Shown here: piece by piece, positions 2,321 through 15,876 of the stretch
Layout of the letters: each line of letters begins with the position of its first letter
How positions within the stretch are numbered: the first letter of the stretch is position 1
The notes under the pieces: model-generated
What the model saw: the letters and a program-made list of their open reading frames with translations, nothing else
Told to the model about the DNA's origin: nothing
Database searches by the model: none
DNA from: a virus
Direction: 5' to 3' (one strand)
Virus record (IMG/VR): IMGVR_UViG_3300043438_001095
Span: 1-23,709 of that record
Length of the DNA: 23,709 nt
Made by a program: the position numbers and the translations under genes

Positions 2321-3856
2321 TTATTTTTTATAAATAGTATTCCCAATAATCATATAATCAATTTTAGATCGATAAAACAAGTCTAAAGCAGCCTCTGGGT
2401 AAGCAGCAATAGGTTTACCATTTATATTTAAACTAGTATTTAAAAGAATTGGACAATTAGTTATTTCATAAAATTTCTCTAACAATTTTCTAAAACTATC
2501 CATGTTTTTAGGCACAGATTGAACTCTGCATGTTTCATCTACATGCGTTATTGATTTAAGATTATTAACTTTTAGTAGATTTGTAAATAACATATATTTA
2601 TCATCAATATCAAGAGTAAAATAATCTTTTAAATACTCCTTTAGAATTGAAGCACCAAACGGTCTGTAATTTTCTCTTTTTTTAACAGAGTTAATAAGTT
2701 TTTTACCATCAGGAATTCGTGGATCCATTAAAATTGATCTATGACCTAACGCTCTTGGACCAATCTCTCCGTGACCCTGATACCACCCAATAATTTTGCC
2801 TTCCGCCAATGCTGTGGCTGCAAATGTTATGGTTTCTTCATTTGGTTCTGTTAAAGGGGCTTCATCGGTTTGAGCGTAAGGAAAATTAGGCAGTGTCATT
2901 GGAGGTAAATTATTTTTAATTCGTAAAAACTCCAGTGTTCCAAGACTAGTTCCCTCATCACTAGAATGAGGAGGAATTATAATATTTTTAAACTTTTTAA
3001 TTAATTTGGTATTCCAAATAACGTTTTGAGCAACACCGCCTGAATATGAAATAACATCGTCTGGAGAAGCATACTCACTAATAAACTCAACTAAAAGATC
3101 TCCAATTCTTTCATGAAGTGTTCTTAACCAGTCTAAATTTGTATGTCGTGCAAGAATTAAATCTCCTTTATGTTCAGTCCATTGCTTGACGTCAAAAATT
3201 TGATTAATTTGATTAATATCAAATTGATTTAACACCTTTAAAAATTCCTCATCAAGTTTTCCATAAGATTGTAAACCCATTAATTTTCCAGCATGATCTA
3301 ATTTAGTAAATGAGGTCACTCCCATCCAGTCCCCTACGTCTTCCATTCCAAAACCAATAGAACCAGTAGTCCAACTAACGCTTTTAATTATTTGGTCATT
3401 TTTAAAGATAGTTACTGTTTTTCCATCACCTGCTGCGTCCACAACTACTCTTATTAAAGGTTTGTTGTTTAAGTCTTCAAGCATCCAACTTGATAGTGCA
3501 TGAGCATAATGATGATTTACATGCCAGGCATTTTTTATACCATATTGATTAAAAACATTATAATTGTCTTTTATTTTATAAAAGAGATGATTTAAGTTAT
3601 ATATGTTTTGATAATCTTCGCTATTTAAATACTCTTTTGATACTAACTCTGGATCCATGTCTACGGCAATTTCATCAATTTCTTCTATTTTTATACCCCA
3701 AATTTTTTCGGCTTCCTTTATCCATTGCCACACCGTGTCAAAATAAAAATGTTTAAATTGTTTTACTCTTTCAAATTTACAGTAATAAACCTGCTTACCA
3801 TCAAAATAAGCCATATTATGGTCATGATTGCTTATGCCGACTGTTAATAATTTCAT
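2321..3856 (-). CDS. O-carbamoyltransferase (NodU/CmcH/TobZ-type)
   Basis: The 511-residue protein has the full two-domain layout. The N-terminal Kae1/HSP70-like domain has the metal-binding H115-H116-x2-H119 (VNHHYAHALSSW), DAAGDG at 140-145, the KLMGLQSYG block near 191 and the nucleotide loop SGGVAQN at 272-278. The C-terminal YrdC-like domain has GHGEIGPRALGHRSILMDPR (361-380), NYRPFGASIL and ILLNTSLNINGKPIA. Family members transfer a carbamoyl group from carbamoyl phosphate, through carbamoyl-adenylate, to a hydroxyl of a sugar or antibiotic. In a phage the target may be a host surface glycan or a modified base or sugar; the sequence does not say which. The gene is AT-rich, opposite in direction to its neighbours and has its own promoter. 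Such genes also occur in cyanophages. Confidence 0.92.
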   Translation of the reverse strand: MKLLTVGISNHDHNMAYFDGKQVYYCKFERVKQFKHFYFDTVWQWIKEAEKIWGIKIEEIDEIAVDMDPELVSKEYLNSEDYQNIYNLNHLFYKIKDNYNVFNQYGIKNAWHVNHHYAHALSSWMLEDLNNKPLIRVVVDAAGDGKTVTIFKNDQIIKSVSWTTGSIGFGMEDVGDWMGVTSFTKLDHAGKLMGLQSYGKLDEEFLKVLNQFDINQINQIFDVKQWTEHKGDLILARHTNLDWLRTLHERIGDLLVEFISEYASPDDVISYSGGVAQNVIWNTKLIKKFKNIIIPPHSSDEGTSLGTLEFLRIKNNLPPMTLPNFPYAQTDEAPLTEPNEETITFAATALAEGKIIGWYQGHGEIGPRALGHRSILMDPRIPDGKKLINSVKKRENYRPFGASILKEYLKDYFTLDIDDKYMLFTNLLKVNNLKSITHVDETCRVQSVPKNMDSFRKLLEKFYEITNCPILLNTSLNINGKPIAAYPEAALDLFYRSKIDYMIIGNTIYKK

Positions 3857-3941: not shown

Positions 3942-4319
3942 ATGGCTAATACACCTAATGAAGATGGCAGTTTTGAAATACACCTAGATGAACACTCTAT
4001 AAATGCTTACAAGCAGATTCACGCTGCAGCAAAGATGGCCGCAATGGGCTCTGAGATTGAAAGAACCCGCTCAGTAAGTATCCACAACCATGCTGATCTA
4101 CTAGATCATCTGCAATCAGATAATGGTCACATCATGGGAAAGTACGCCCAATACAGAAATACTCATGAAGATACACATATCCCAGGAGTACGACCAATAG
4201 ATAACGACTTCGATCATGAGTTATCACATAAAGAATTAATTGCTTTACACCATCACGATCACAACAAATACCCAGATGATCCACACACTACAGTTGATGG
4301 CGAACACTTCCATCACTAA
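3942..4319 (+). CDS. His-rich hypothetical protein (125 aa)
   Basis: First gene of the rightward operon. The product is rich in His and Asp, with clusters HNHADLLDHLQ, ELIALHHHDHNK and a C-terminal EHFHH. It shares the string TPNEDGS (residues 4-10) with the protein at 5448. The spacing of His in H-x2-L-L-D-H-L and L-x2-H-H-H-D-H resembles small actinophage proteins with HLxxDHG-type motifs, whose function is unknown. Metal binding is plausible from composition but no defined fold can be named. The stop overlaps the next ATG as TAATG, so translation is coupled to the ART-like gene. Confidence 0.6.
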   Translation: MANTPNEDGSFEIHLDEHSINAYKQIHAAAKMAAMGSEIERTRSVSIHNHADLLDHLQSDNGHIMGKYAQYRNTHEDTHIPGVRPIDNDFDHELSHKELIALHHHDHNKYPDDPHTTVDGEHFHH

Positions 4320-4630
4320 TGAGCAATCTATCTAAGCAGCAGTTTGGCCCCATGTACCATGGCACTCGTGCAGATGTAAGTGGTGGCTTTGTATTACCTG
4401 CTGTCACTGAAGGTGAAGGTCGCATGGCTCGTGCATGGGCTACAAGTGATCCAGATCAGGCAAGATTCTTTGGCGAAACTAAAATGCCAAAGGGTGCTGA
4501 GAAGAATCCAGTTAAGGTTTATAAAGTATCACCAGTTAGCGATGAAGTTAAAGAAGAGTCTGGGAACATAGAGGGTGAACGCTTCTATTCCTCCCCTCAC
4601 GGATTTATGATTACAGGAGAACACAAATGA
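4319..4630 (+). CDS. Arr-like ADP-ribosyltransferase fold protein (103 aa)
   Basis: After a tag-like N-terminus (MSNLSKQQF) the protein shows the Arr/H-type ADP-ribosyltransferase pattern: YHGTRAD with H14 as the NAD-binding His, WATSDPDQARFFG (about 40-52) where Arr has the VYFT...A..WGAE block, then VKVYKVSPVSDE and a Ser/Pro-Gly end, SSPHGFMITG. Arr enzymes (about 140 aa) modify rifamycin; phage and actinobacterial relatives have unknown targets. This copy is shorter and has W or T where Arr has Tyr, so activity is uncertain. It is coupled to the genes before and after by TAATG and ATGA overlaps. See the finding on the shared N-terminal tag. Confidence 0.55.
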   Translation: MSNLSKQQFGPMYHGTRADVSGGFVLPAVTEGEGRMARAWATSDPDQARFFGETKMPKGAEKNPVKVYKVSPVSDEVKEESGNIEGERFYSSPHGFMITGEHK

Positions 4631-4758
4631 GCGCCCAAAATTTATCTACTCAACAATTTGGAGTTAAGGTAATGCCTAAAGAGATGTATGTAAATGTCGC
4701 TATGCAGATGACACCTCCATCAGAAGCATCCAATACAGTAAGTAGTACAAAAGCATGA
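4627..4758 (+). CDS. Tag-only miniprotein with NLSTQQF N-terminus (43 aa)
   Basis: The ATG at 4627 overlaps the previous stop (ATGA), and its own stop overlaps the next ATG in the same way. The product begins MSAQNLSTQQFG, the same N-terminal signature as its neighbours at 4319, 5925, 6278 and 6742. It then has only about 30 further residues, rich in Met, Thr and Ser, with no domain. It could be a remnant of a lost effector, or the tag itself may be functional. The context and peptide conservation support it as a real gene. Confidence 0.55.
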   Translation: MSAQNLSTQQFGVKVMPKEMYVNVAMQMTPPSEASNTVSSTKA

Positions 4759-4886
4759 GCGCCAAATACTCACGTAACGAACCATTTAACAAGATGCAGA
4801 TTAAAGATGGCTGGATAGTCATCATGCGAAAAGATGGATCTATCAAGTCACGCATTGAGCCATACCGACCAAAGGTTAAAAAATAA
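4755..4886 (+). CDS. Small basic hypothetical protein (43 aa)
   Basis: The start overlaps the preceding stop (ATGA) and the stop overlaps the thermonuclease ATG (TAATG). The product, beginning MSAKYSRNEPFNKMQIKDGW, is strongly basic and contains a beta-hairpin-like stretch, DGWIVIMRKDGSIKSRIEPY. No cysteine, membrane segment or known domain is visible. Position and tight coupling suggest a role in the same operon. Function unknown. Confidence 0.5.
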   Translation: MSAKYSRNEPFNKMQIKDGWIVIMRKDGSIKSRIEPYRPKVKK

Positions 4887-5290
4887 TGTATGAGTACCGT
4901 GTTAAGAAGGTCCACAAGGTAGTTGATGGCGATACTATCGATGTTGATATTGATTTGGGGTTCTCCGTCTCATTCTTCTCTCGTGTGCGCCTAGCAGGTA
5001 TAGATACACCTGAGAGCCGTACAACTGATGCAAAAGAAAAAGCCCTCGGCTTGGAAGTTAAAGAAAAGATTAAAAAAGAATTAGCGGCGGCAAAAGACGT
5101 TGTAATTAAGACGGAGAAGCCTGACTCATCAGAGAAGTACGGACGCATACTTGGGTGGGTATTCTTAGATGGCGCCGATCTCTCACTTAATCAAAAACTA
5201 ATCAATGAAGGTTATGCTTGGACATATGGTGGCGGCACGAAGATTAAAGACTTTGATGAATTAGTAGCAAAGAGACAGGTGAACCCATGA
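4886..5290 (+). CDS. Staphylococcal-nuclease-like thermonuclease
   Basis: The 134-residue OB-fold nuclease has the complete SNase active site. R35 and E43 lie in RVRLAGIDTPE, R87 in SEKYGRILGW, and the calcium ligands D21, D40 and T41 fall at the same numbers as in the S. aureus mature enzyme. The N-terminus runs VVDGDTIDVDID as in the family. There is no signal peptide, so it should act in the cytoplasm or inside the virion rather than being secreted. Substrate: DNA or RNA phosphodiester bonds, calcium dependent in the family. It is coupled to both neighbours by TAATG and ATGA overlaps. In phage genomes such nucleases may degrade host DNA or help processing; the role here is inferred. Confidence 0.9.
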   Translation: MYEYRVKKVHKVVDGDTIDVDIDLGFSVSFFSRVRLAGIDTPESRTTDAKEKALGLEVKEKIKKELAAAKDVVIKTEKPDSSEKYGRILGWVFLDGADLSLNQKLINEGYAWTYGGGTKIKDFDELVAKRQVNP

Positions 5291-5451
5291 CGACCATGTG
5301 TGAGCATGTCTATAAGAGTATAGGCGTAAGTTTGTGCCCCAAGTGCGGTCTTGATACTCACGACACTAATTGGAATAAACAAAATAAATTAATGGCTCAA
5401 TGGCATACTGATAATCCTGATGCTGAGTATGAGGGATGGATGTCGATATGA
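5287..5451 (+). CDS. Small zinc-binding protein (54 aa)
   Basis: The ATG overlaps the thermonuclease stop (ATGA). The product has C5-E-H7 and C17-PK-C20-G followed by H25, a compact zinc knuckle, then a helical tail ending DNPDAEYEGWMSI. The CPKCGLDTH and YEGWMSI blocks resemble small proteins I recall from other aquatic phages, none with a known function. The stop overlaps the next ATG. It is probably an adaptor or nucleic-acid-binding miniprotein; no specific role can be assigned. Confidence 0.6.
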   Translation: MTTMCEHVYKSIGVSLCPKCGLDTHDTNWNKQNKLMAQWHTDNPDAEYEGWMSI

Positions 5452-5681
5452 GTAAGAAGAAGTGGATCCCACATCCAACTGAAAATTATCATGTAGATTG
5501 GCACGCTCTTAGATGGCACAAACATGCTATGACCATGGAAGACAGTAACAAGTTTATGTCTACACCTAATGAGGATGGATCACGTAAGACAAAGTTTGAT
5601 TATCATCAACACCTACATGACACAGGACAATTTGGTCTTGGCGAGCCTCATGATCACTTTACTCCCAAGGATAAGAAATGA
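5448..5681 (+). CDS. His-rich hypothetical protein (77 aa)
   Basis: The start chosen is ATG 5448, which overlaps the preceding TGA, rather than the upstream in-frame ATG at 5436 inside that gene. The product is rich in His, Lys and Trp (VDWHALRWHKHAM, YHQHLHDTGQFG, EPHDHF). It contains MSTPNEDGS in mid-protein, the same string found near the N-terminus of the protein at 3942, which is also His rich, so the two probably share ancestry. Metal binding is plausible. Function unknown. The stop overlaps the next start (ATGA). Confidence 0.55.
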   Translation: MSKKKWIPHPTENYHVDWHALRWHKHAMTMEDSNKFMSTPNEDGSRKTKFDYHQHLHDTGQFGLGEPHDHFTPKDKK

Positions 5682-5932
5682 AGAAGAAGAGTTTTTCAAA
5701 GAGTGGTTACTCTAGATCTTCTTATGGGAAAAGATCCGTCCAGGAGCGCTTTAAAGTTAAAGATGTAAATGAAGAGGGTGGAGCCGATTATATTTCTGCA
5801 TGGGTAAACAATAATTTAAATAAGACACAAATGGCGAGTGCTGAGGGAATTAAAGATTTAATGCAAGGACCAAAGTTAGGTTATAACGTAAGGAAGCCTA
5901 AGAGGTCTGAGCCAAGGGAAGAAGATGAGTAA
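5678..5932 (+). CDS. Basic hypothetical protein (84 aa)
   Basis: The N-terminus is low complexity and very basic (MKKKSFSKSGYSRSSYGKR), followed by a short helical middle (DYISAWVNNNLNKTQMASAE) and a charged tail ending EPREEDE. It may bind nucleic acid through the basic tail, but no fold is recognisable. It begins in the ATGA overlap with the preceding gene and overlaps the next gene, the first R-S-E ADP-ribosyltransferase, by 8 nt. Confidence 0.5.
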   Translation: MKKKSFSKSGYSRSSYGKRSVQERFKVKDVNEEGGADYISAWVNNNLNKTQMASAEGIKDLMQGPKLGYNVRKPKRSEPREEDE

Positions 5933-6278
5933 TTTATCTCCTAAACAATTTCACACTCTCTATCGTGGATTAAGTTTTACTACAGATGTAAAAAAACCCC
6001 TCGGCATGCATTGGACAGAAGACCCAGAGAGAGCCGTCGGCTTTGCAAGAAATCCTATTCGGCGTGGACCTGGCGTTGTAATTGAAGGACAAGTGGCTAA
6101 GAAGAGTCGTGAAACTCGTCCTGATGTATTAAAGAAGAATCAAGTCTACGATGAGTATTGGGAAAATGAAGTTCCTGTTAAGAAGGGCAGCACCGTGCAC
6201 GTAACTGCTGTTACTAAGTTAAGTGACAAGAGAGATCGCACACGCACCTACACTCCACCACGAAAGTGGAAAGCATAA
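5925..6278 (+). CDS. Predicted R-S-E type mono-ADP-ribosyltransferase (117 aa)
   Basis: Behind the tag MSNLSPKQF the protein shows the three blocks of arginine-type ARTs. These are LYRG with R14, GMHWTEDPERAVGFA with T31 at the position usually Ser (STS motif), and WENEVPVKKG with E80-N-E82, an ExE motif followed by the strand VHVTAV. This is the toxin/T4 Alt-ModA layout in minimal form. The substrate would be an arginine side chain of a host protein, with NAD as donor. At 117 residues it is near the lower limit for the fold. The next gene is a diverged paralogue (see the GMHW-DP, EVPVK-G and V-VT strings). Function inferred from motifs only. Confidence 0.55.
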   Translation: MSNLSPKQFHTLYRGLSFTTDVKKPLGMHWTEDPERAVGFARNPIRRGPGVVIEGQVAKKSRETRPDVLKKNQVYDEYWENEVPVKKGSTVHVTAVTKLSDKRDRTRTYTPPRKWKA

Positions 6279-6742
6279 TGGCTGCTCAAGATAATTTATC
6301 TAAACAACAATGGAATCAATCAGAATTAACTTTTCAAGTACACCGTGGTGTAACTCGTAAATTTAAAAAGGATGCACCTCTTGGAATGCATTGGTCAGCA
6401 GATCCTCAAGTAGCAAGAAGGTTTGCTGGATCTTTTGGCACCGTCATGCATGCCGAAGTTCCTATCAGTGCTGTAGAGACAGATAGTAAGAGATTGAGTC
6501 GTGCTCAAGTTGATTTGCGTGATAAAGAAATGAAGCGTCCAGAAAAGGAAGTTCCAGTTAAACCTGGCGCAAAAGTAAAAGTTACAGGTATCTCTGGACC
6601 TGAAGCAGATCCTGTTACAGGCAATTGGAATGGATTAAGAAGAAATGAATCTCCAACATTCTCTTCTTGGGTAGCAAGTAAAGATAGCAAACGTCCAGCA
6701 AGAAAACGTACATATAAAAATCCTAAAGAGATGCAAGCATAA
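6278..6742 (+). CDS. Predicted R-S-E type mono-ADP-ribosyltransferase, paralogue (154 aa)
   Basis: The ATG at 6278 overlaps the previous TAA; an in-frame ATG at 6266 lies inside the previous gene and is less likely. After the tag-like MAAQDNLSKQQW the ART blocks are VHRG (R23), LGMHWSADPQVARRFAG (S40) and EKEVPVKPGAKVKVTG (E89-K-E91). The Ser is retained here, so the R-S-ExE triad is complete. The middle is longer than in the paralogue upstream. A basic C-terminal tail (KRPARKRTYKNPKEMQA) follows, similar in character to the RTRTYTPPRKWKA tail of the paralogue. Expected reaction: NAD-dependent ADP-ribosylation of a host protein. Target unknown. Confidence 0.55.
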   Translation: MAAQDNLSKQQWNQSELTFQVHRGVTRKFKKDAPLGMHWSADPQVARRFAGSFGTVMHAEVPISAVETDSKRLSRAQVDLRDKEMKRPEKEVPVKPGAKVKVTGISGPEADPVTGNWNGLRRNESPTFSSWVASKDSKRPARKRTYKNPKEMQA

Positions 6743-7248
6743 TGTTAAATCAAAGACAATTTAATATGCCTGTTCCTGAAAATGTTCAAATAAGAAAAGC
6801 AGGCGGTAAAGGTCATCTTGAAGGCGATAAGAGTGAGAGTGCTACTGGCATGGTTAGAACTGAGCGATTAATTCCTTTGATGGAACATAGGCGCCTTGGT
6901 GCTGATGCCCAACCTTCTAGTTCTAAAGTTATTGCTGGAATTAGAGGAGACATTAAGAGTGGCAAAGGTATTAATAATCCAATCATGGTTGCATATGATC
7001 ACGCTAATAAGTGGGGCGTTGTTGGTGAAGGACACCATAGATTAGAGGCTGCAATGGCAGAGGGCGTTACCCATGTGCCCGTGACAGTTTATCGTCAGCC
7101 AGGATTAGGTGAAAGAAAAGAAAACTTTAAAGGCGGTCATTTAGCCATGATAACTAACTTCACTGATAAAGGAAGTTATGAAGAACGTACAGGAAAAGAA
7201 TATGTGCCTACTAATATTCACCCCGCTCACTTTAAGCAGTTTCAATGA
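6742..7248 (+). CDS. ParB/sulfiredoxin-like domain protein (168 aa)
   Basis: The N-terminus MLNQRQF is a shorter version of the tag on neighbouring proteins. From about residue 60 it follows the ParB-N/sulfiredoxin pattern: IRGDIKSGKGINNPIMVAY, then WGVVGEGHHRLEAA (93-104), where ParB proteins have the GxHR nucleotide-binding box, then VTHVPVTVYR. ParB-fold proteins act as CTPases, nucleases or kinases, and phage versions are diverse. There is no helix-turn-helix after the domain, so this is not a segregation ParB. The context (ART genes, SNase) suggests a modifying enzyme or nuclease effector. The start overlaps the previous stop (TAATG) and the stop overlaps the next start (ATGA). Confidence 0.65.
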   Translation: MLNQRQFNMPVPENVQIRKAGGKGHLEGDKSESATGMVRTERLIPLMEHRRLGADAQPSSSKVIAGIRGDIKSGKGINNPIMVAYDHANKWGVVGEGHHRLEAAMAEGVTHVPVTVYRQPGLGERKENFKGGHLAMITNFTDKGSYEERTGKEYVPTNIHPAHFKQFQ

Positions 7249-7601
7249 ACAACTACGATCATCAAATAGTTTCTAATGTTAGAGAGCATCTAACTGATGA
7301 CCTACGTAGTGCAAAGTTTCGTGGACACGAGTGCAAGACCGCTGGCCACTGCTACGTCGCCAGTGAGGCGGTGTACCACTCACTAGGTGGTAAGTCTGCT
7401 GGCTATACTCCAATGCAGATTAAACATGAAGGAACTAGTCACTGGTTTTTAAAGCATTCATCAGGAAAGATAATTGATGCAACCTCAGATCAATTTGCAA
7501 CTGCAGTTCCTTATGAGAAAGCCAAGGGAAGAGGCTTCCTCACTAAGGAGCCGTCTAGACGTGCAAAGACATTAATGAGTCGTCTGGAATCGAATCCCTA
7601 A
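7245..7601 (+). CDS. Cys-His-Asp thiol-enzyme-like protein (118 aa)
   Basis: Last gene of the operon. The product has a papain/transglutaminase-like order of residues: GHCYVASEAVYHSLGG with C36 at a helix start, TSHWFLKHSSG with H66, and KIIDATSDQF with D78, followed by VPYEKAKGRGFLTKEPSRRA. This resembles small phage and archaeal hypothetical proteins I recognise by the GHCYVASEA and HWFL-IDAT strings. A protease, transglutaminase or amidase activity would fit the Cys-His-Asp set but is untested. It has no tag at its N-terminus. Its last 47 nt overlap the 3' end of the leftward gene at 7555. Confidence 0.6.
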   Translation: MNNYDHQIVSNVREHLTDDLRSAKFRGHECKTAGHCYVASEAVYHSLGGKSAGYTPMQIKHEGTSHWFLKHSSGKIIDATSDQFATAVPYEKAKGRGFLTKEPSRRAKTLMSRLESNP

Positions 7602-8088
7602 ACTCCTCTATTGGAACTCTCCAACAGTTTCCTGACTTCTCTTGAGACCACCACTCATCTTTTTGACATTCTGCTACTGGTAACCAGCCATATATCTCTA
7701 CTGAAGAGAAATACTCTAGATCGTGAATTCTTGTGCCAACAATTATGGCGTTCTTATTTACATCCTTGCTCCATACAGGTATTGCATCTTTTGTTCTGAC
7801 ACAACGCACCTCTAAGTTATTCCCAACATCAGGGTGATTAATACGGTTCTTATGCTCCTCATTTGTATACCAAGGAACGTTCCAGGGCATTTTATAAAGT
7901 TTAGCCACCGCATACTCTGCGACATTTGCTCTTATATTTGCATTTAGTTCAAACTCAAGCCAACCTTGACGTTTGCCCTCAGCATAGTTTGGGCGATCTA
8001 TACTGCCCCATTTTAATAGCCAGCGTTCCATACCCAGTTGAGCACAGATTCTAATCTCATCTTTTGTTAGTTCTACTATTTTTGCCAT
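7555..8088 (-). CDS. PD-(D/E)XK nuclease-like hypothetical protein (177 aa)
   Basis: The leftward gene is read from its own promoter at 8095-8103. Residues fit a restriction-endonuclease-like core loosely: E58 in the first helix (NVAEYAVAKLY), D87 in HPDVGNNLEVR with E93-V-R95 on the next strand, and later strands NAIIVGTRI and VEIYGWLPVAE. The xR in place of the usual xK and the absence of other landmarks make this assignment tentative. Trp-rich ends (EWWSQ, GNCWRVP) may form a lid. Similar proteins occur in phages without a known role. It is isolated by orientation from both flanking rightward units, with a 47-nt tail-to-tail overlap with the thiol-enzyme gene. Confidence 0.5.
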   Translation of the reverse strand: MAKIVELTKDEIRICAQLGMERWLLKWGSIDRPNYAEGKRQGWLEFELNANIRANVAEYAVAKLYKMPWNVPWYTNEEHKNRINHPDVGNNLEVRCVRTKDAIPVWSKDVNKNAIIVGTRIHDLEYFSSVEIYGWLPVAECQKDEWWSQEKSGNCWRVPIEEFRDSIPDDSLMSLHV

Positions 8089-8094
8089 GTGCCA

Positions 8095-8103
8095 AACCTA
8101 TCA
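8095..8103 (-). promoter_or_regulatory. Extended -10 promoter for the leftward nuclease-like gene
   Basis: On the minus strand TGA-TAGGTT is followed by 6 nt and the ATG at 8088. It shares TGTGATAGG with the promoters at 1595 and 3863. No Shine-Dalgarno of the AAGGAG type is present, so a leaderless mRNA is likely. Confidence 0.6.
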
Positions 8104-8137
8104 CACTGCGACAATAGCCCCATACGAAAGGAGCCAG

Positions 8138-8878
8138 ATGGCAGACAAAGGCACAGCAGCAGCAATTATTGAGGTTGCAGAAAAAGAAGTTGGCACTATT
8201 GAAGGTCCAAAAGATAACGAAACTAAGTACGGTAAGTTTACCAAGGCTGATTTTCTACCATGGTGTGGGTCTTTTGTTATGTGGTGTGCTAATCAGGCAG
8301 GTGTAAAGGTTCCTAATACAGTTTCAACTGTGGCAGGTGCAACAGCATTTAGAAAGATGGGTACCTGGGTAGACGCAAAAGATGCCTCTCCAAAACCAGG
8401 AGACATAGCCTATTTTGATTTTCCAGGAGATGGTGTAGATAGAATTTCTCACGTAGGTATTGTTGTATCTAACAATGGAGATGGAACAGTTACCTGCATT
8501 GAAGGCAATACTGCAGGAACTGCAAAAGGTGATCAGCGCAATGGTGGAGAAGTTTGTAAAAAAGTTCGTGGCTACATATCCAATAAAAAGAAGGTCATGG
8601 TATCTGTTGTTGGATTTGGTCGCCCTAACTATGTTGGTAACGAAGTTGAGGCAAGCGTCCCTGTTTCAGAGACACCAACCTTCCCAGGAACTATTAAACC
8701 TGGAAGTAAAGGAAACAACGTCAAGGTTGTTCAACGTGCTCTTGGTCTAATGGCTGATGGAGACTACGGCCCAGCCACAAAGAAGGCTGTAATTGCATTT
8801 CAAGACAATCACGACATTTTGGACTCTAACGGAATTGTTGGCCCCAAGACCTGGGCAGAACTGGTCAAACTCCTATAA
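8138..8878 (+). CDS. Endolysin: CHAP amidase/peptidase plus peptidoglycan-binding domain
   Basis: The start is ATG 8138, set by AAGGAG at 8128-8133; the longer in-frame version from 8087 overlaps the promoter of the divergent gene and is not supported. The 246-residue product has an N-terminal CHAP domain (about 1-170) with C43 in FLPWCGSFVMWC, H105 in ISHVGIVV and the acidic/Asn partner in CIEGNT (120-125). A C-terminal PG_binding_1 domain (about 185-246) contains GSKGNNVKVVQRALGL, DGDYGPATKKAVIAFQ and GIVGPKTWAELVKLL. It cleaves cell-wall peptides or amide bonds at lysis. No signal peptide is seen, so it needs a holin; candidates lie at 15873-16278. A strong terminator follows the stop. Confidence 0.88.
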   Translation: MADKGTAAAIIEVAEKEVGTIEGPKDNETKYGKFTKADFLPWCGSFVMWCANQAGVKVPNTVSTVAGATAFRKMGTWVDAKDASPKPGDIAYFDFPGDGVDRISHVGIVVSNNGDGTVTCIEGNTAGTAKGDQRNGGEVCKKVRGYISNKKKVMVSVVGFGRPNYVGNEVEASVPVSETPTFPGTIKPGSKGNNVKVVQRALGLMADGDYGPATKKAVIAFQDNHDILDSNGIVGPKTWAELVKLL

Positions 8879-8898
8879 ACTGGACATTTTACCCCCAT

Positions 8899-8937
8899 AG
8901 CCCCCTAAGAACCATCTGGTATTCTTGGGGGGCTTTC
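8899..8937 (+). terminator. Rho-independent terminator after the endolysin gene
   Basis: AGCCCCCTAAGAA (8899-8911) pairs with TTCTTGGGGGGCT (8922-8934), a 13-bp stem with one G-T pair and a short loop, followed by TTTC. It lies 21 nt after the endolysin stop and just before the Ntn-hydrolase gene. Confidence 0.85.
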
Positions 8938-8953
8938 TACTGAAGGGGTGCCC

Positions 8954-9499
8954 ATGACAACTATCATCGGAGTACAGTACGAAGATCGCTGCATCTTACT
9001 TGCAGATAATCAAGTAACAGATGACAGTGGTCGAATCTATCGACATCCACAGATGGCAAAAGTTACCGAACGTGGTGATTTTATAATTGCTGGTTCTGGA
9101 GAGGTGTCTCCTTGCGACATTGCTCAACACATTTGGAATCCACCAAAATTAACTGCAAAAGATTCTAAAGATGTCTATCACTTTATGATTGCAAAGGCTA
9201 TGCCTTCTTTTAGAAAATGTTTGACTGAAAATGGATACGACTTTAATGAGGACCACGACAAGTCTAAAGAAGGGTTACGATTCCAATTCTTAATGGCTGT
9301 TGGTGGCGAGTTGTTTGATATTGATCAAGATTTGGCTGTTATGAGAAGTATGGATGGAACATATGCAGTTGGCTCTGGTGCAACGTACGCTTTAGGAGCC
9401 TTACATGCTGGTGCTAAACCAATGAAGGCTATGGAAATTGCTGCAAAACTCACAGCCTTTACTTCAGGTCCATACATTGAAAAGGAACAACTTAAGTAA
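8954..9499 (+). CDS. HslV/proteasome-like Ntn-hydrolase (181 aa)
   Basis: AAGGGG (8943-8948) positions the ATG at 8954 as start; an in-frame GTG at 8948 overlaps that site. Removing Met1 exposes TTIIGVQYEDRCILLADNQV, the T1-family start. It has a catalytic Thr1 and a D17 equivalent; a Lys in the next block (QMAKV) would stand for K33. Further family marks are DFIIAGSGEVSPC and the late block YAVGSGATYALGALHAG with EIAAKLTAFTSGPY, as in HslV and 20S beta subunits. These enzymes are self-compartmentalised proteases. No ATPase partner is in the window. A phage copy could degrade or process proteins during infection or act as a head-maturation protease; both are inference. Confidence 0.8.
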   Translation: MTTIIGVQYEDRCILLADNQVTDDSGRIYRHPQMAKVTERGDFIIAGSGEVSPCDIAQHIWNPPKLTAKDSKDVYHFMIAKAMPSFRKCLTENGYDFNEDHDKSKEGLRFQFLMAVGGELFDIDQDLAVMRSMDGTYAVGSGATYALGALHAGAKPMKAMEIAAKLTAFTSGPYIEKEQLK

Positions 9500-9708: not shown

Positions 9709-10671
9709 GTGATATCACTGAAAAAAATCGCACTTGTTAGTGCTGCAGCATTGACAAGCACCGTTCTTTTAGTTCCATCAGCAAATGCAAATATATTAAC
9801 TCTGACCGTTAACGGTTCAGCAGCAACTGGAGGCACAGCAGCAACTGCTCCTGTAGCACTTCCTGTTCCAGCAGATAACAGCGTTGATTTAGCAGATGCA
9901 TTAAAAATTGCTGTAACAGGTTTAGATACTGGTACAGTTGTTACTGCTGTTGCTACAAATGCAACATTAGTTCCAGCCGTAGCAACTTCTACTGCTCCAG
10001 TTACTGCATCCTCTGGAACTGCAAGTCTTTCTATTAGTACAGGAACTGGTACCACTGCTGATATTTTTGTTTATACAAAAACAACTGCAGTAGGGTCTGT
10101 TGCTGTAACTATCCGTGGAAATACAACTACATATTACGTACAAGGAACTGCTGGTGCACTTAATGCAATTGCACTAACCGCACCTGATTCAGCAGCGGCT
10201 GGAAGTACTCAATCATTAAAGGTAACTGGATACGATGTATTTGGAAACTTAAAGGGTGGAGCATCTATCAATGCTGTTGTAAGCAATGGGTCTACAGCCT
10301 CTGCAACTACTTTAACAACAGACACTGTTACAGCAACAAATGGAACTAAAACATTTGATGTAGCAATTCCAGCAGCAGGTCAAGTTACTGTAATTGTTTA
10401 TGCAACTGTTGCTACTGCAATTGCTGGCATGTCAACTCCTGTTGGGTCAGTTAGCAAGAACATTGCTATTCGTGATCTTGCAGGTGAGTTAGCAGCAGTC
10501 CAAGCAGCACTTGCAGCAGAGAAGGTTGGTCGTGCCGCTGATAAAGCAGCCTATGACTCAGCCACCGCAACTGCTACAAAGCAGATTGCTGATCTAAATG
10601 CAGCAATTGCAAGTCTAAAAGCCCTTTATAACAAGTTGGCTAAGAAGTACAAATTAAAGACTATTAAGTAG
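9709..10671 (+). CDS. Secreted Ala/Thr-rich surface protein (320 aa)
   Basis: A GTG start follows AAGGAG. The N-terminus is a signal peptide (MISLKKIALVSAAALTSTVL, then LVPSANA, likely cleaved near residue 27). The mature part is Ala/Thr/Val rich with beta-strand repeats of Ig-like character (ALTAPDSAAAGSTQSLKVTG, YDVFGNLKGGASINAVVSNG). The C-terminus is a coiled coil (LAGELAAVQAALAAEKVGRA, KQIADLNAAIASLKALYNKL) with a basic end KKYKLKTIK. This architecture looks like host cell-surface proteins of small freshwater actinobacteria rather than a typical virion protein. It could alter the infected cell surface or be a host gene captured by the phage. The 209 nt before it hold no other gene; TCTATTATAGA (9573-9583) is a small palindrome there. 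Confidence 0.7.
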   Translation: MISLKKIALVSAAALTSTVLLVPSANANILTLTVNGSAATGGTAATAPVALPVPADNSVDLADALKIAVTGLDTGTVVTAVATNATLVPAVATSTAPVTASSGTASLSISTGTGTTADIFVYTKTTAVGSVAVTIRGNTTTYYVQGTAGALNAIALTAPDSAAAGSTQSLKVTGYDVFGNLKGGASINAVVSNGSTASATTLTTDTVTATNGTKTFDVAIPAAGQVTVIVYATVATAIAGMSTPVGSVSKNIAIRDLAGELAAVQAALAAEKVGRAADKAAYDSATATATKQIADLNAAIASLKALYNKLAKKYKLKTIK

Positions 10672-13596: not shown

Positions 13597-15876
13597 TTGA
13601 AAATACTGCGTCTATTCGCAGCACTATCTGTCGTACGTAATATTGGAAGACTTATTTTATGTGGAGGAGTTGTTACTCTCTTCCTTGTATTTGGCATGTC
13701 TCAAGAAGTTTATGCTGAGGACAATCAAGAACAAGTTGTGGTCAGTCCTGCTCAACAAGCAGTTAACTCAGCACTTGCCACAGCAACTACAGAAGTACAA
13801 CAGGCTATTGCAGCCACAGATACTGCCACAGCCACAATAGCAACAGCACAGACAGAATTAACTCAGGCTCAATCTGCGGTAGAAACCATAACTGCAACTG
13901 TAGTTGTAGCACAAACAAGTGTTGCTTTAATTGATACAGCAACAGCCACAATAAACGCTATTGATTTAACTGTTACACCTGTCGATCAAAGTTCACCAGT
14001 AGTTCAAGATGCTAAAGACACTGTTATAGATGCTCAACTTGCCATTAACAATATCGATACAACAACTGCACAAACAGAATTAACTCAAACAATTACGGCT
14101 CGAACAGCGGCAGTAACAGCACAGGCAACAGCACAGACAGAATTAACTCAAGCCAATATTGCTATTGATAATGCTCAAACAGCAGTTAATAATTTGCAAG
14201 CAACAATTGGCACTAGTACCAATGTTTTGGCTGGAGTCGATGACGCTGGTATAAGAATGACTCTTCCATTTAATTTATTAATGGGTGACACGCTTTATAG
14301 CAACGTATATGTTGGATCAAATGCCACAATAACTTTTGGCGTAGATGAAGGATGGGTTTATTATCAAACCCCAAATGCTCCATCAGTTTCTATTGCTGGA
14401 TGGGATTGGACAACTTGGAGCACAGGAACAGGAATTACTTACGCTACAACTGGATCAAGTCTAGATATTGCTTGGGATGTTAGACCTTTTCCCCAGCAAG
14501 ATGCTTCAACTCAAATGGTTCAAATAAGATTTAATGCTGATGTTAATCCAACTAACGGAGCATGGATAGCAAATGTAACTGCGGTCGGACCAATACCAGA
14601 ACAAGCAAGATTTAACTACAGAGAAACAACAAATGGAACTATAACCCCTGTAGAAGATACAAATACAGGCTCTGGATTTGCTGGACAAATAAGTCAAGGT
14701 CCTGCATTCACTCCAACTGTAGATACCAGCACAGCAGGTGTTCAGGCAGCAGTAGACGCAGCAAATGCAACTATTGCACAGTTAAATCAAAGTCTAACTC
14801 CAGTAGTTACTCAAAATACCTTAAATAACTCTGCTAATGCTGTACTAGGTACAAGTATTACAACATTAACTAACACACTTAATACAGCAGTAGCAACAAA
14901 GACAACTCTTCAATCAGAGTTAGTACTTAAAGCAGCAGAATTAAATTCTGCAATTAGTTTAATTCCCGAGGTTCCAGAACCTCAACCTTCTCCTCAGCCT
15001 CAACCAGAGCCAATCTTTGGAGGAGTTCCTGATTTTCAACCAGAGTTTGTTGAACCGCCTGTTGAAACCGTTCCTGACGTTCCTGTTGAAGAAGAGATAC
15101 AGCCAACCCCAGAACCTGAGACTGTTCCTGAGCCAGAACCAGAAGTCGATCTTGAGCCTGCTCCAGAGCCTGAATTAACTCCTGATGATTCATCTGAAAC
15201 CTCCTTAGAAGAACAAGAGTCTATAGTAAATGAACTTTCTAATGATGGCGAATTATCAGAATCTGATGCAGAAACAGTGTTAGATGCTTTAAGTTCAGAT
15301 GGAGAAATTACTCAAGAAGAAGTAACTAATCTTGCAGAAACACTTTCTGAAGATGGAGAGTTTACTGAAGCAGAACGAGAGTTAGTTGCAGAAGCCTTAA
15401 TTGAGTCTGCAGAGGGAGAAGCAGTCACCGCTGAAGCAATTGAAGAAGCAGGACTAACTTATGAAGACTTACCAGCAGAAACTCCTGTTGAGGTTCGCCA
15501 AGATGAAAATGGTAATGAAGTTATAATTACTGCAGAAGTAGCAGCAGCACTTACTGTACTAGAAAGTCCTGCTGAATTTATTGGTGCAATATTCGATGAT
15601 CCAGGACAAGCATTAACAGCCGTATTAAATATTGGTGCTGACATGTCCGTTGAAGAGCGAGAAGAGTCAGAGAAAATTATTGTTGCAGCAGTAATTGCTG
15701 GTCAAGCCGCTATTAATGCAGCGACAATGGCAGCAACAGGTGCGGCAACAACTGCCGCTGTTAGTGCAGCAACAACTGCAACAGGAAGTACAACGCCAAG
15801 CAGTAGCGGTGGCGCTGGTGGACCTGCTGCTGGAAATGACAAACCAAAGAGAACGTTTAGGAGACGTGCTAAATGA
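13597..15876 (+). CDS. Large exported repeat protein with beta domain (759 aa)
   Basis: A TTG start is set by GAGGGG (13586-13591). Residues 1-40 form a signal peptide or anchor (RLILCGGVVTLFLVFGMSQE, cut near VYA). Residues 45-205 are an Ala/Thr/Gln coiled coil with AQTELTQ three times. Residues 210-345 form a beta domain resembling nidogen/NIDO-type domains (LPFNLLMGDTLYSNVYVGSN, ITFGVDEGWVYYQTP). A second coiled coil follows, then a Pro/Glu-rich linker (about 455-530). Residues 547-600 are three exact 18-residue repeats starting LS-DGE. An Ala-rich segment and a basic tail KRTFRRRAK close it. The layout suggests a surface or virion fibre-like adhesin. Its stop overlaps the next start (ATGA). 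Confidence 0.65.
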   Translation: MKILRLFAALSVVRNIGRLILCGGVVTLFLVFGMSQEVYAEDNQEQVVVSPAQQAVNSALATATTEVQQAIAATDTATATIATAQTELTQAQSAVETITATVVVAQTSVALIDTATATINAIDLTVTPVDQSSPVVQDAKDTVIDAQLAINNIDTTTAQTELTQTITARTAAVTAQATAQTELTQANIAIDNAQTAVNNLQATIGTSTNVLAGVDDAGIRMTLPFNLLMGDTLYSNVYVGSNATITFGVDEGWVYYQTPNAPSVSIAGWDWTTWSTGTGITYATTGSSLDIAWDVRPFPQQDASTQMVQIRFNADVNPTNGAWIANVTAVGPIPEQARFNYRETTNGTITPVEDTNTGSGFAGQISQGPAFTPTVDTSTAGVQAAVDAANATIAQLNQSLTPVVTQNTLNNSANAVLGTSITTLTNTLNTAVATKTTLQSELVLKAAELNSAISLIPEVPEPQPSPQPQPEPIFGGVPDFQPEFVEPPVETVPDVPVEEEIQPTPEPETVPEPEPEVDLEPAPEPELTPDDSSETSLEEQESIVNELSNDGELSESDAETVLDALSSDGEITQEEVTNLAETLSEDGEFTEAERELVAEALIESAEGEAVTAEAIEEAGLTYEDLPAETPVEVRQDENGNEVIITAEVAAALTVLESPAEFIGAIFDDPGQALTAVLNIGADMSVEEREESEKIIVAAVIAGQAAINAATMAATGAATTAAVSAATTATGSTTPSSSGGAGGPAAGNDKPKRTFRRRAK
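13846..14150 (+). repeat. Three near-identical 20-nt repeats coding AQTELTQ
   Basis: Copies at 13846-13865, 14068-14087 and 14131-14150 encode AQTELTQ in the first coiled coil of the exported protein. The first and third are identical; the second differs by one base (A for G at the sixth position). Confidence 0.7.
15235..15396 (+). repeat. Three tandem 54-bp (18-residue) DGE repeats
   Basis: Three in-frame units begin LSNDGEL, LSSDGEI and LSEDGEF, each 18 residues with an acidic loop followed by an amphipathic helix. The loops resemble half EF-hand or dockerin-type calcium loops but are shorter than a canonical 12-residue loop. Confidence 0.75.

Follow-up and report, generated by a model that had tools for sequence, protein, structure and literature searches.

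A proteasome-like Ntn hydrolase gene of actinophages and its changing place in their genomes

A 23,709-nt stretch of IMG/VR virus record IMGVR_UViG_3300043438_001095, hereafter the window, comes from a freshwater bacterial virus and carries a gene that an initial annotation read as a phage HslV/proteasome-like Ntn hydrolase, acting either as a head-maturation protease or as a particle that degrades host proteins. Is the product such an enzyme, and which of the two roles suits it better? Phage proteasome homologues are a known kind, and what is new here is the genomic context. Fuchs, Alva and Lupas 2021 described group I proteasome homologues in phages, PPH and AAH (PMC8665760), and HslV without HslU has been reported in a Salmonella jumbo phage (PMC7823757). 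In the excerpts of PMC8665760 that we consulted, no context suggesting a function was found for the new homologues, nor an Actinobacteria-specific phage for AAH; the group I-like homologue described below is common in freshwater actinophages.

The gene, its start and its neighbours

The open reading frame at 8954-9499 (+) is uninterrupted and encodes 181 aa, Met followed by Thr1. The protein begins MTTIIG and holds both GSGEVSP and the late block YAVGSGATYALGALHAG, as annotated. The proposed D17-like Asp is residue 18, which becomes 17 after Met loss, and it is invariant. The ATG at 8954 is preceded, at a spacing of 5 nt, by the Shine-Dalgarno sequence AAGGGG (8943-8948, +), read by eye in a conserved region. 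Because an in-frame GTG at 8948 overlaps AAGGGG, translation probably begins at the ATG of 8954.

A conserved hairpin immediately before the Shine-Dalgarno sequence (approximately 8899-8934, +) had been taken for a strong terminator. It is strong (z -2.85 for the folded stretch), but a terminator scan did not call it because its T run is interrupted; the earlier description is only partly borne out. In the predicted fold of 8879-8960, the GGGG of the Shine-Dalgarno sequence pairs with an upstream ACCCCC, a pairing that could control translation of the Ntn gene. The upstream neighbour is an endolysin gene (8087-8878, +) with CHAP and peptidoglycan-binding domains. Downstream, the gene at 9709-10671 (+) starts with a signal-peptide-like stretch, judged by eye, in agreement with its earlier description as a secreted protein gene. 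It is not always present: a gene of this type comes next in 44 of 76 endolysin-type Ntn contexts.

Family, fold and active site

The window protein matches PHROG 1040, 'peptidase HslV family', with E = 9.2e-28 and has relatives encoded in 169 IMG/VR stretches, which puts the resemblance far above chance. The Pfam Proteasome match stays under its cut-off (20.8 bits vs 22.4). With tblastn, 109 of 50,697 phage records gave a match, all below 60% identity, and a genome-contig scan with two peptide patterns returned one cellular relative, 26% identical. By sequence, its closest relatives of solved structure are BPH (E = 8.4e-4 with the single sequence, 1.2e-10 with a 35-row profile) and HslV. Phages of PHROG 1040, phAPEC8 and ESCO5 for example, encode proteins of the same profile family, but these are about 29% identical and their neighbours are unrelated to those of the window.

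The name HslV fits only as a resemblance. Fold (Z about 17-17.5), TTI start and GSG motif are shared with HslV, whereas the pore loop of the window protein is longer and the cut-offs of the curated HslV models are far from reached (TIGR03692, 22.2 bits vs 157.75; NF003964, 22.8 bits vs 137). Among PPH, AAH and CPH, the group I homologues reported in phages in the part of PMC8665760 consulted, the comparison was made with PPH, by description. PPH has about 140 residues and lacks helix H2 (PMC8665760, in excerpt), while the window protein has 181 and retains helix 2, and we therefore rejected this identity. The 'peptidase' gp42 of phage LuckySocke shows no resemblance to the window protein by eye.

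AlphaFold2, given 35 aligned sequences, predicted a monomer with a mean pLDDT of 91.6 and a pTM of 0.88. The model and its structure matches display the alpha-beta-beta-alpha Ntn fold, with all four helices in place (51-60, 74-92, 143-151 and 156-166). BPH (5ovs, 5ovt, 5ovu) is the best solved match both by fold and by profile, in a comparison that leaves AAH and CPH outside. VIA-align superposed 159 residues on 5ovt with Z 18.5 and rmsd 2.3, placing Thr2 of the model on residue 1 of the BPH chain, at an overall identity of 22-23%. The two differ in setting, BPH being a bacterial gene of stress-linked operons (PMC5777263, in excerpt) and the window copy a phage gene.

The active site is conserved throughout. 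Thr2 (codon 8957-8959, +), the nucleophile Thr1 once Met is removed, is Thr in all 35 aligned relatives and in 189 of 189 complete proteins. Equally invariant (35/35), and aligned with the same residues of BPH, are Asp18 (9005-9007, +; the Asp17 equivalent), Lys36 (9059-9061, +; Lys33) and Gly49 (9098-9100, +; likely the oxyanion-hole Gly47). In the GSG motif the Ser is kept in 30 of the 35, with T in four and A in one. Canonical active proteasome subunits also have Asp166. At the equivalent position, set by eye, T occurs 11 times, N 10, S nine and D five times; as Asp is thus missing from 30 of 35 relatives, activity may be reduced or altered. Asp166 lies outside the triad that defines the family (PMC8665760, in excerpt). 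From helix 2 to the next strand runs loop 92-109 (9227-9280, +), a BPH-like long acidic pore loop. Across the 35 sequences it has 15-19 residues, with a mean of 5.3 acidic and 2.4 basic ones, and it aligns gap-free with one BPH. The BPH loop is likewise long and acidic, and BPH is not known to work with an unfoldase (PMC5777263, in excerpt). Fold prediction, active-site residues and conservation all agree, and at the level of sequence and model they confirm the predicted product as a real proteasome-like (T1) Ntn hydrolase. Neither outcome that the initial annotation named as refuting it, a model lacking the Ntn fold or a Thr1 that varies among relatives, was observed.

Position, absence and exchange of the gene

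The window terminase is 53-54% identical to those of the Streptomyces phages BRock and LuckySocke. WhiB is encoded by three genomes that share the window's neighbourhood (G004, G006, G007) and by 11 of 18 searched records overall; it was not found in the window, which is a fragment. The nearest phage records, OX376641 and OX376640 (listed as 'Caudovirales sp. ct2KA10'), appear to be LanE43AprF5 and LanE43AprE7, which were cultured on 'Ca. Planktophila' (PMC10202952). Their Ntn hydrolases are 41-42% identical to that of the window over the full length and have the same active-site residues. Two cultured 'Ca. Planktophila' phages carry the gene. The main text of PMC10202952 makes no mention of a protease or proteasome, and the excerpted PMC6802176 none of proteasome, HslV or protease. 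By title and opening we found no paper on a proteasome-like protease behind a portal, in a search that left subscription literature mostly outside, and no relevant paper linking Planktophila with the proteasome.

In OX376641 the Ntn gene lies directly behind the portal gene, whereas the window copy follows an endolysin. We collected contexts from the best 80 of 169, of 199 and of 399 relatives, with overlapping loci. In these 194 overlapping contexts, the gene directly upstream is a portal in 106, an endolysin in 76 and neither in 12. The position behind the portal occurs in a large actinophage clade that includes the family copies of both 'Ca. Planktophila' phages, portal adjacency being established in one. 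Phage F5 of this portal clade has the order terminase, portal, Ntn hydrolase, small proteins, giant protein, two more, scaffold-like, capsid (head gene matches: terminase 1.6e-66, portal 8.4e-28, capsid 5.2e-82, scaffold weak at 0.0038). The giant protein of the clade, for example L087:11087-16222 (-), has 1500-1900 aa, and its first 350 residues are hypervariable even from one close relative to the next (median 14% identity). In the window lineage the order is terminase, portal, scaffold-like, capsid, the scaffold-like protein having no PHROG match and being named from its alignment with the LuckySocke scaffold. No recognised protease lies among the genes from terminase to capsid there, and in the window the Ntn gene is separated from the terminase by 11 kb and from the portal by 13 kb.

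Neither position is always occupied. Of 80 loci anchored by the endolysin, 57 have the Ntn gene 74-77 nt behind it, and the other 23, with endolysins 78-81% identical, lack it at that place. The records of ten of these 23 were searched, and five have a diverged Ntn gene elsewhere; in the four that were inspected (G026, G030, G031, G032) it lies directly behind a portal. In G014, a T2-like copy is found at a distance from the head genes, with genes of the opposite strand beside it. Among the matches listed, 80 loci are anchored by portals 84-97% identical, of which 77 are testable once three incomplete ones are left out. Behind the portal, 67 of these 77 have the gene on the same strand, typically after a 14-nt gap (one measured at -55 nt, probably from a misplaced start). 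In the remaining ten, whose portals are 85-87% identical, no Ntn gene follows within the 1160 nt or more that the locus offers, and none was found elsewhere in their records, which measure 5.8 to 39.9 kb, the longest being accompanied by one of 37.5 kb. There the portal is followed by an ORF of 73-86 aa and then by one of 128-146 aa, which is similar to p160 in nine of ten; in L264 the ORF at this position had no match. The more distant Immanuel3 and Kumquat (Beephvirinae; portals 42% identical), as well as BRock and LuckySocke, have no Ntn gene. One Ntn-less phage has a lysine-rich ORF of 457 aa between terminase and portal (L378:16517-17890, -).

Where the gene is present, its type changes. 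In 1523 of 2741 comparisons among 116 distinct portal/Ntn pairs, taken from overlapping loci, portals more than 85% identical carry Ntn hydrolases less than 50% identical. Four types (T1 to T4) occupy the slot, 25-49% identical between types, and the window protein is best placed in T2, judging by identities of at least 61% to several T2 members. Mapping types and 'none' on a 75-row portal tree requires 16 changes, where four is the least possible; with five long-branch rows taken out, the 70-row tree requires 13. The tree was built by a quick method and many of its forks are weak, the portal may itself recombine, and the starred branches alone force fewer changes (T2 six, T1 four, T3 four, T4 three, none two, each counted alone). 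The labels are still clustered, with none of 200 shuffles as low, indicating that short-term inheritance is also real. Over the 60 of 75 tree rows with all four genes, Ntn identity shows no correlation with that of p160 (rho 0.06) or of the giant protein (0.02; noisy, being taken over its variable first 350 aa) and hardly any with that of the portal (0.12). Ntn type is independent of the downstream virion genes. That deeply diverged types replace each other repeatedly at a single slot suggests that selection favours changes of specificity, and this pattern distinguishes the Ntn hydrolase from a structural enzyme.

Possible roles of the enzyme

The slot directly behind the portal is the usual place of a head-maturation protease. 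During assembly such an enzyme would cut the scaffold, the portal or one of the internal proteins that are ejected, and several observations would suit it. Among the matches listed, most portal-clade phages retain the gene roughly 14 nt downstream of the portal, which fits a virion role and goes against the reading that we prefer below. The slot also lies upstream of genes for putative internal proteins, scaffold and capsid, and other candidates are scarce: no ClpP-type protease was found in nine records, and Peptidase_S78 occurs in only one of 13. However, the ten Ntn-less portal loci among the matches listed speak against it, with no replacement protease recognised in the phage with the extra terminase-portal ORF, which has no family match, and no ClpP-type one in G017 and G022. 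Capsid N-termini of phages with and without the gene align from residue 1, small internal gaps aside, and the swapping of types, their independence of the downstream virion proteins and the distance of the window copy from the head genes oppose it as well. We consider this half of the original proposal improbable, and the gene looks like an exchangeable accessory rather than a core capsid-maturation enzyme.

HslV and the 20S proteasome act with AAA+ partners, and a phage ring might instead dock on a host AAA+ unfoldase and redirect it to substrates of the phage's choosing. As the initial annotation had it, no ATPase partner is nearby, the window having neither an AAA_2 nor an AAA match, and the lack of a recognised phage unfoldase near the gene would be in keeping with a borrowed one. 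Farther afield the picture is mixed. AAA_2 (HslU/ClpX-type) was above cut-off in none of 13 phage records, some possibly fragments, with one sub-threshold match, while PF00004 (AAA) gave matches in eight of nine records, five of nine above cut-off. In phage F5 the AAA match is a DnaB-like helicase and was rejected as an unfoldase. That in G006, a relative of the window phage, is a CobS/MoxR-like AAA_5 (L108:8251-9117), which makes an ATPase partner possible in the window lineage. The AAA_5 gene adjoins a large ORF and is about 9 kb from the Ntn gene. Since the pore loop is like that of BPH, dependence on a host unfoldase seems unlikely to us. It is very improbable that the fold has been repurposed as a specific ligase like connectase, or as an inactive decoy. 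Proteasome-like proteins do include a protein ligase (PMC8665760, in excerpt), and the Asp166 equivalent is mostly lost, but the invariant catalytic Thr, Asp, Lys and Gly argue against a decoy and the predicted helices 1 and 2, absent in connectase (same excerpts), against a ligase of that kind.

Taken together, we lean, at little better than even, toward an intact, accessory threonine peptidase that is host-directed and independent of an unfoldase, its rings, activity and targets being putative. The particle degrading host proteins is accordingly the better of the two roles first proposed, with ring and targets again putative. This reading draws on what was computed here: predicted fold, active site, BPH-like pore loop, movement between sites and lineages, and absence in close relatives. 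The Ntn hydrolase would be made together with the late genes, and host methionine aminopeptidase would remove Met and expose Thr1. Subunits may then form a self-compartmentalising ring that needs no unfoldase of its own, as proposed for BPH, and this accessory enzyme would cut proteins of the host, or unfolded ones present during infection, while head building proceeds without it. A more daring and rather doubtful extension is that in actinophages the place behind the portal serves as a dedicated exchange slot, with deeply diverged protease types swapped there repeatedly and independently of the virion genes, and with copies moving elsewhere, as in the window. Each type might then serve as a specificity module, eliminating some host factor, perhaps a defence protein, with no unfoldase required. 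Natural Ntn-less relatives make the role of a viral proteasome homologue directly testable.

Other genes of the window deserve mention. In a run of small ORFs at 4319-7601, two or three look ADP-ribosyltransferase-like by eye, the Pfam Arr-ms match being without significance at E 0.2. The same run encodes a ParB-like protein (PHROG 2e-5) and one that is YunG-like, at 27.3 bits against a cut-off of 27. The gene at 13597-15876 encodes 759 aa with a signal-like start, an acidic proline-rich middle and no Pfam match. A Nol-like carbamoyltransferase is encoded at 2321-3856 (-; PHROG 1601, 3e-140), and an AhpD/carboxymuconolactone decarboxylase-like protein, possibly serving in peroxide defence, at 415-978.
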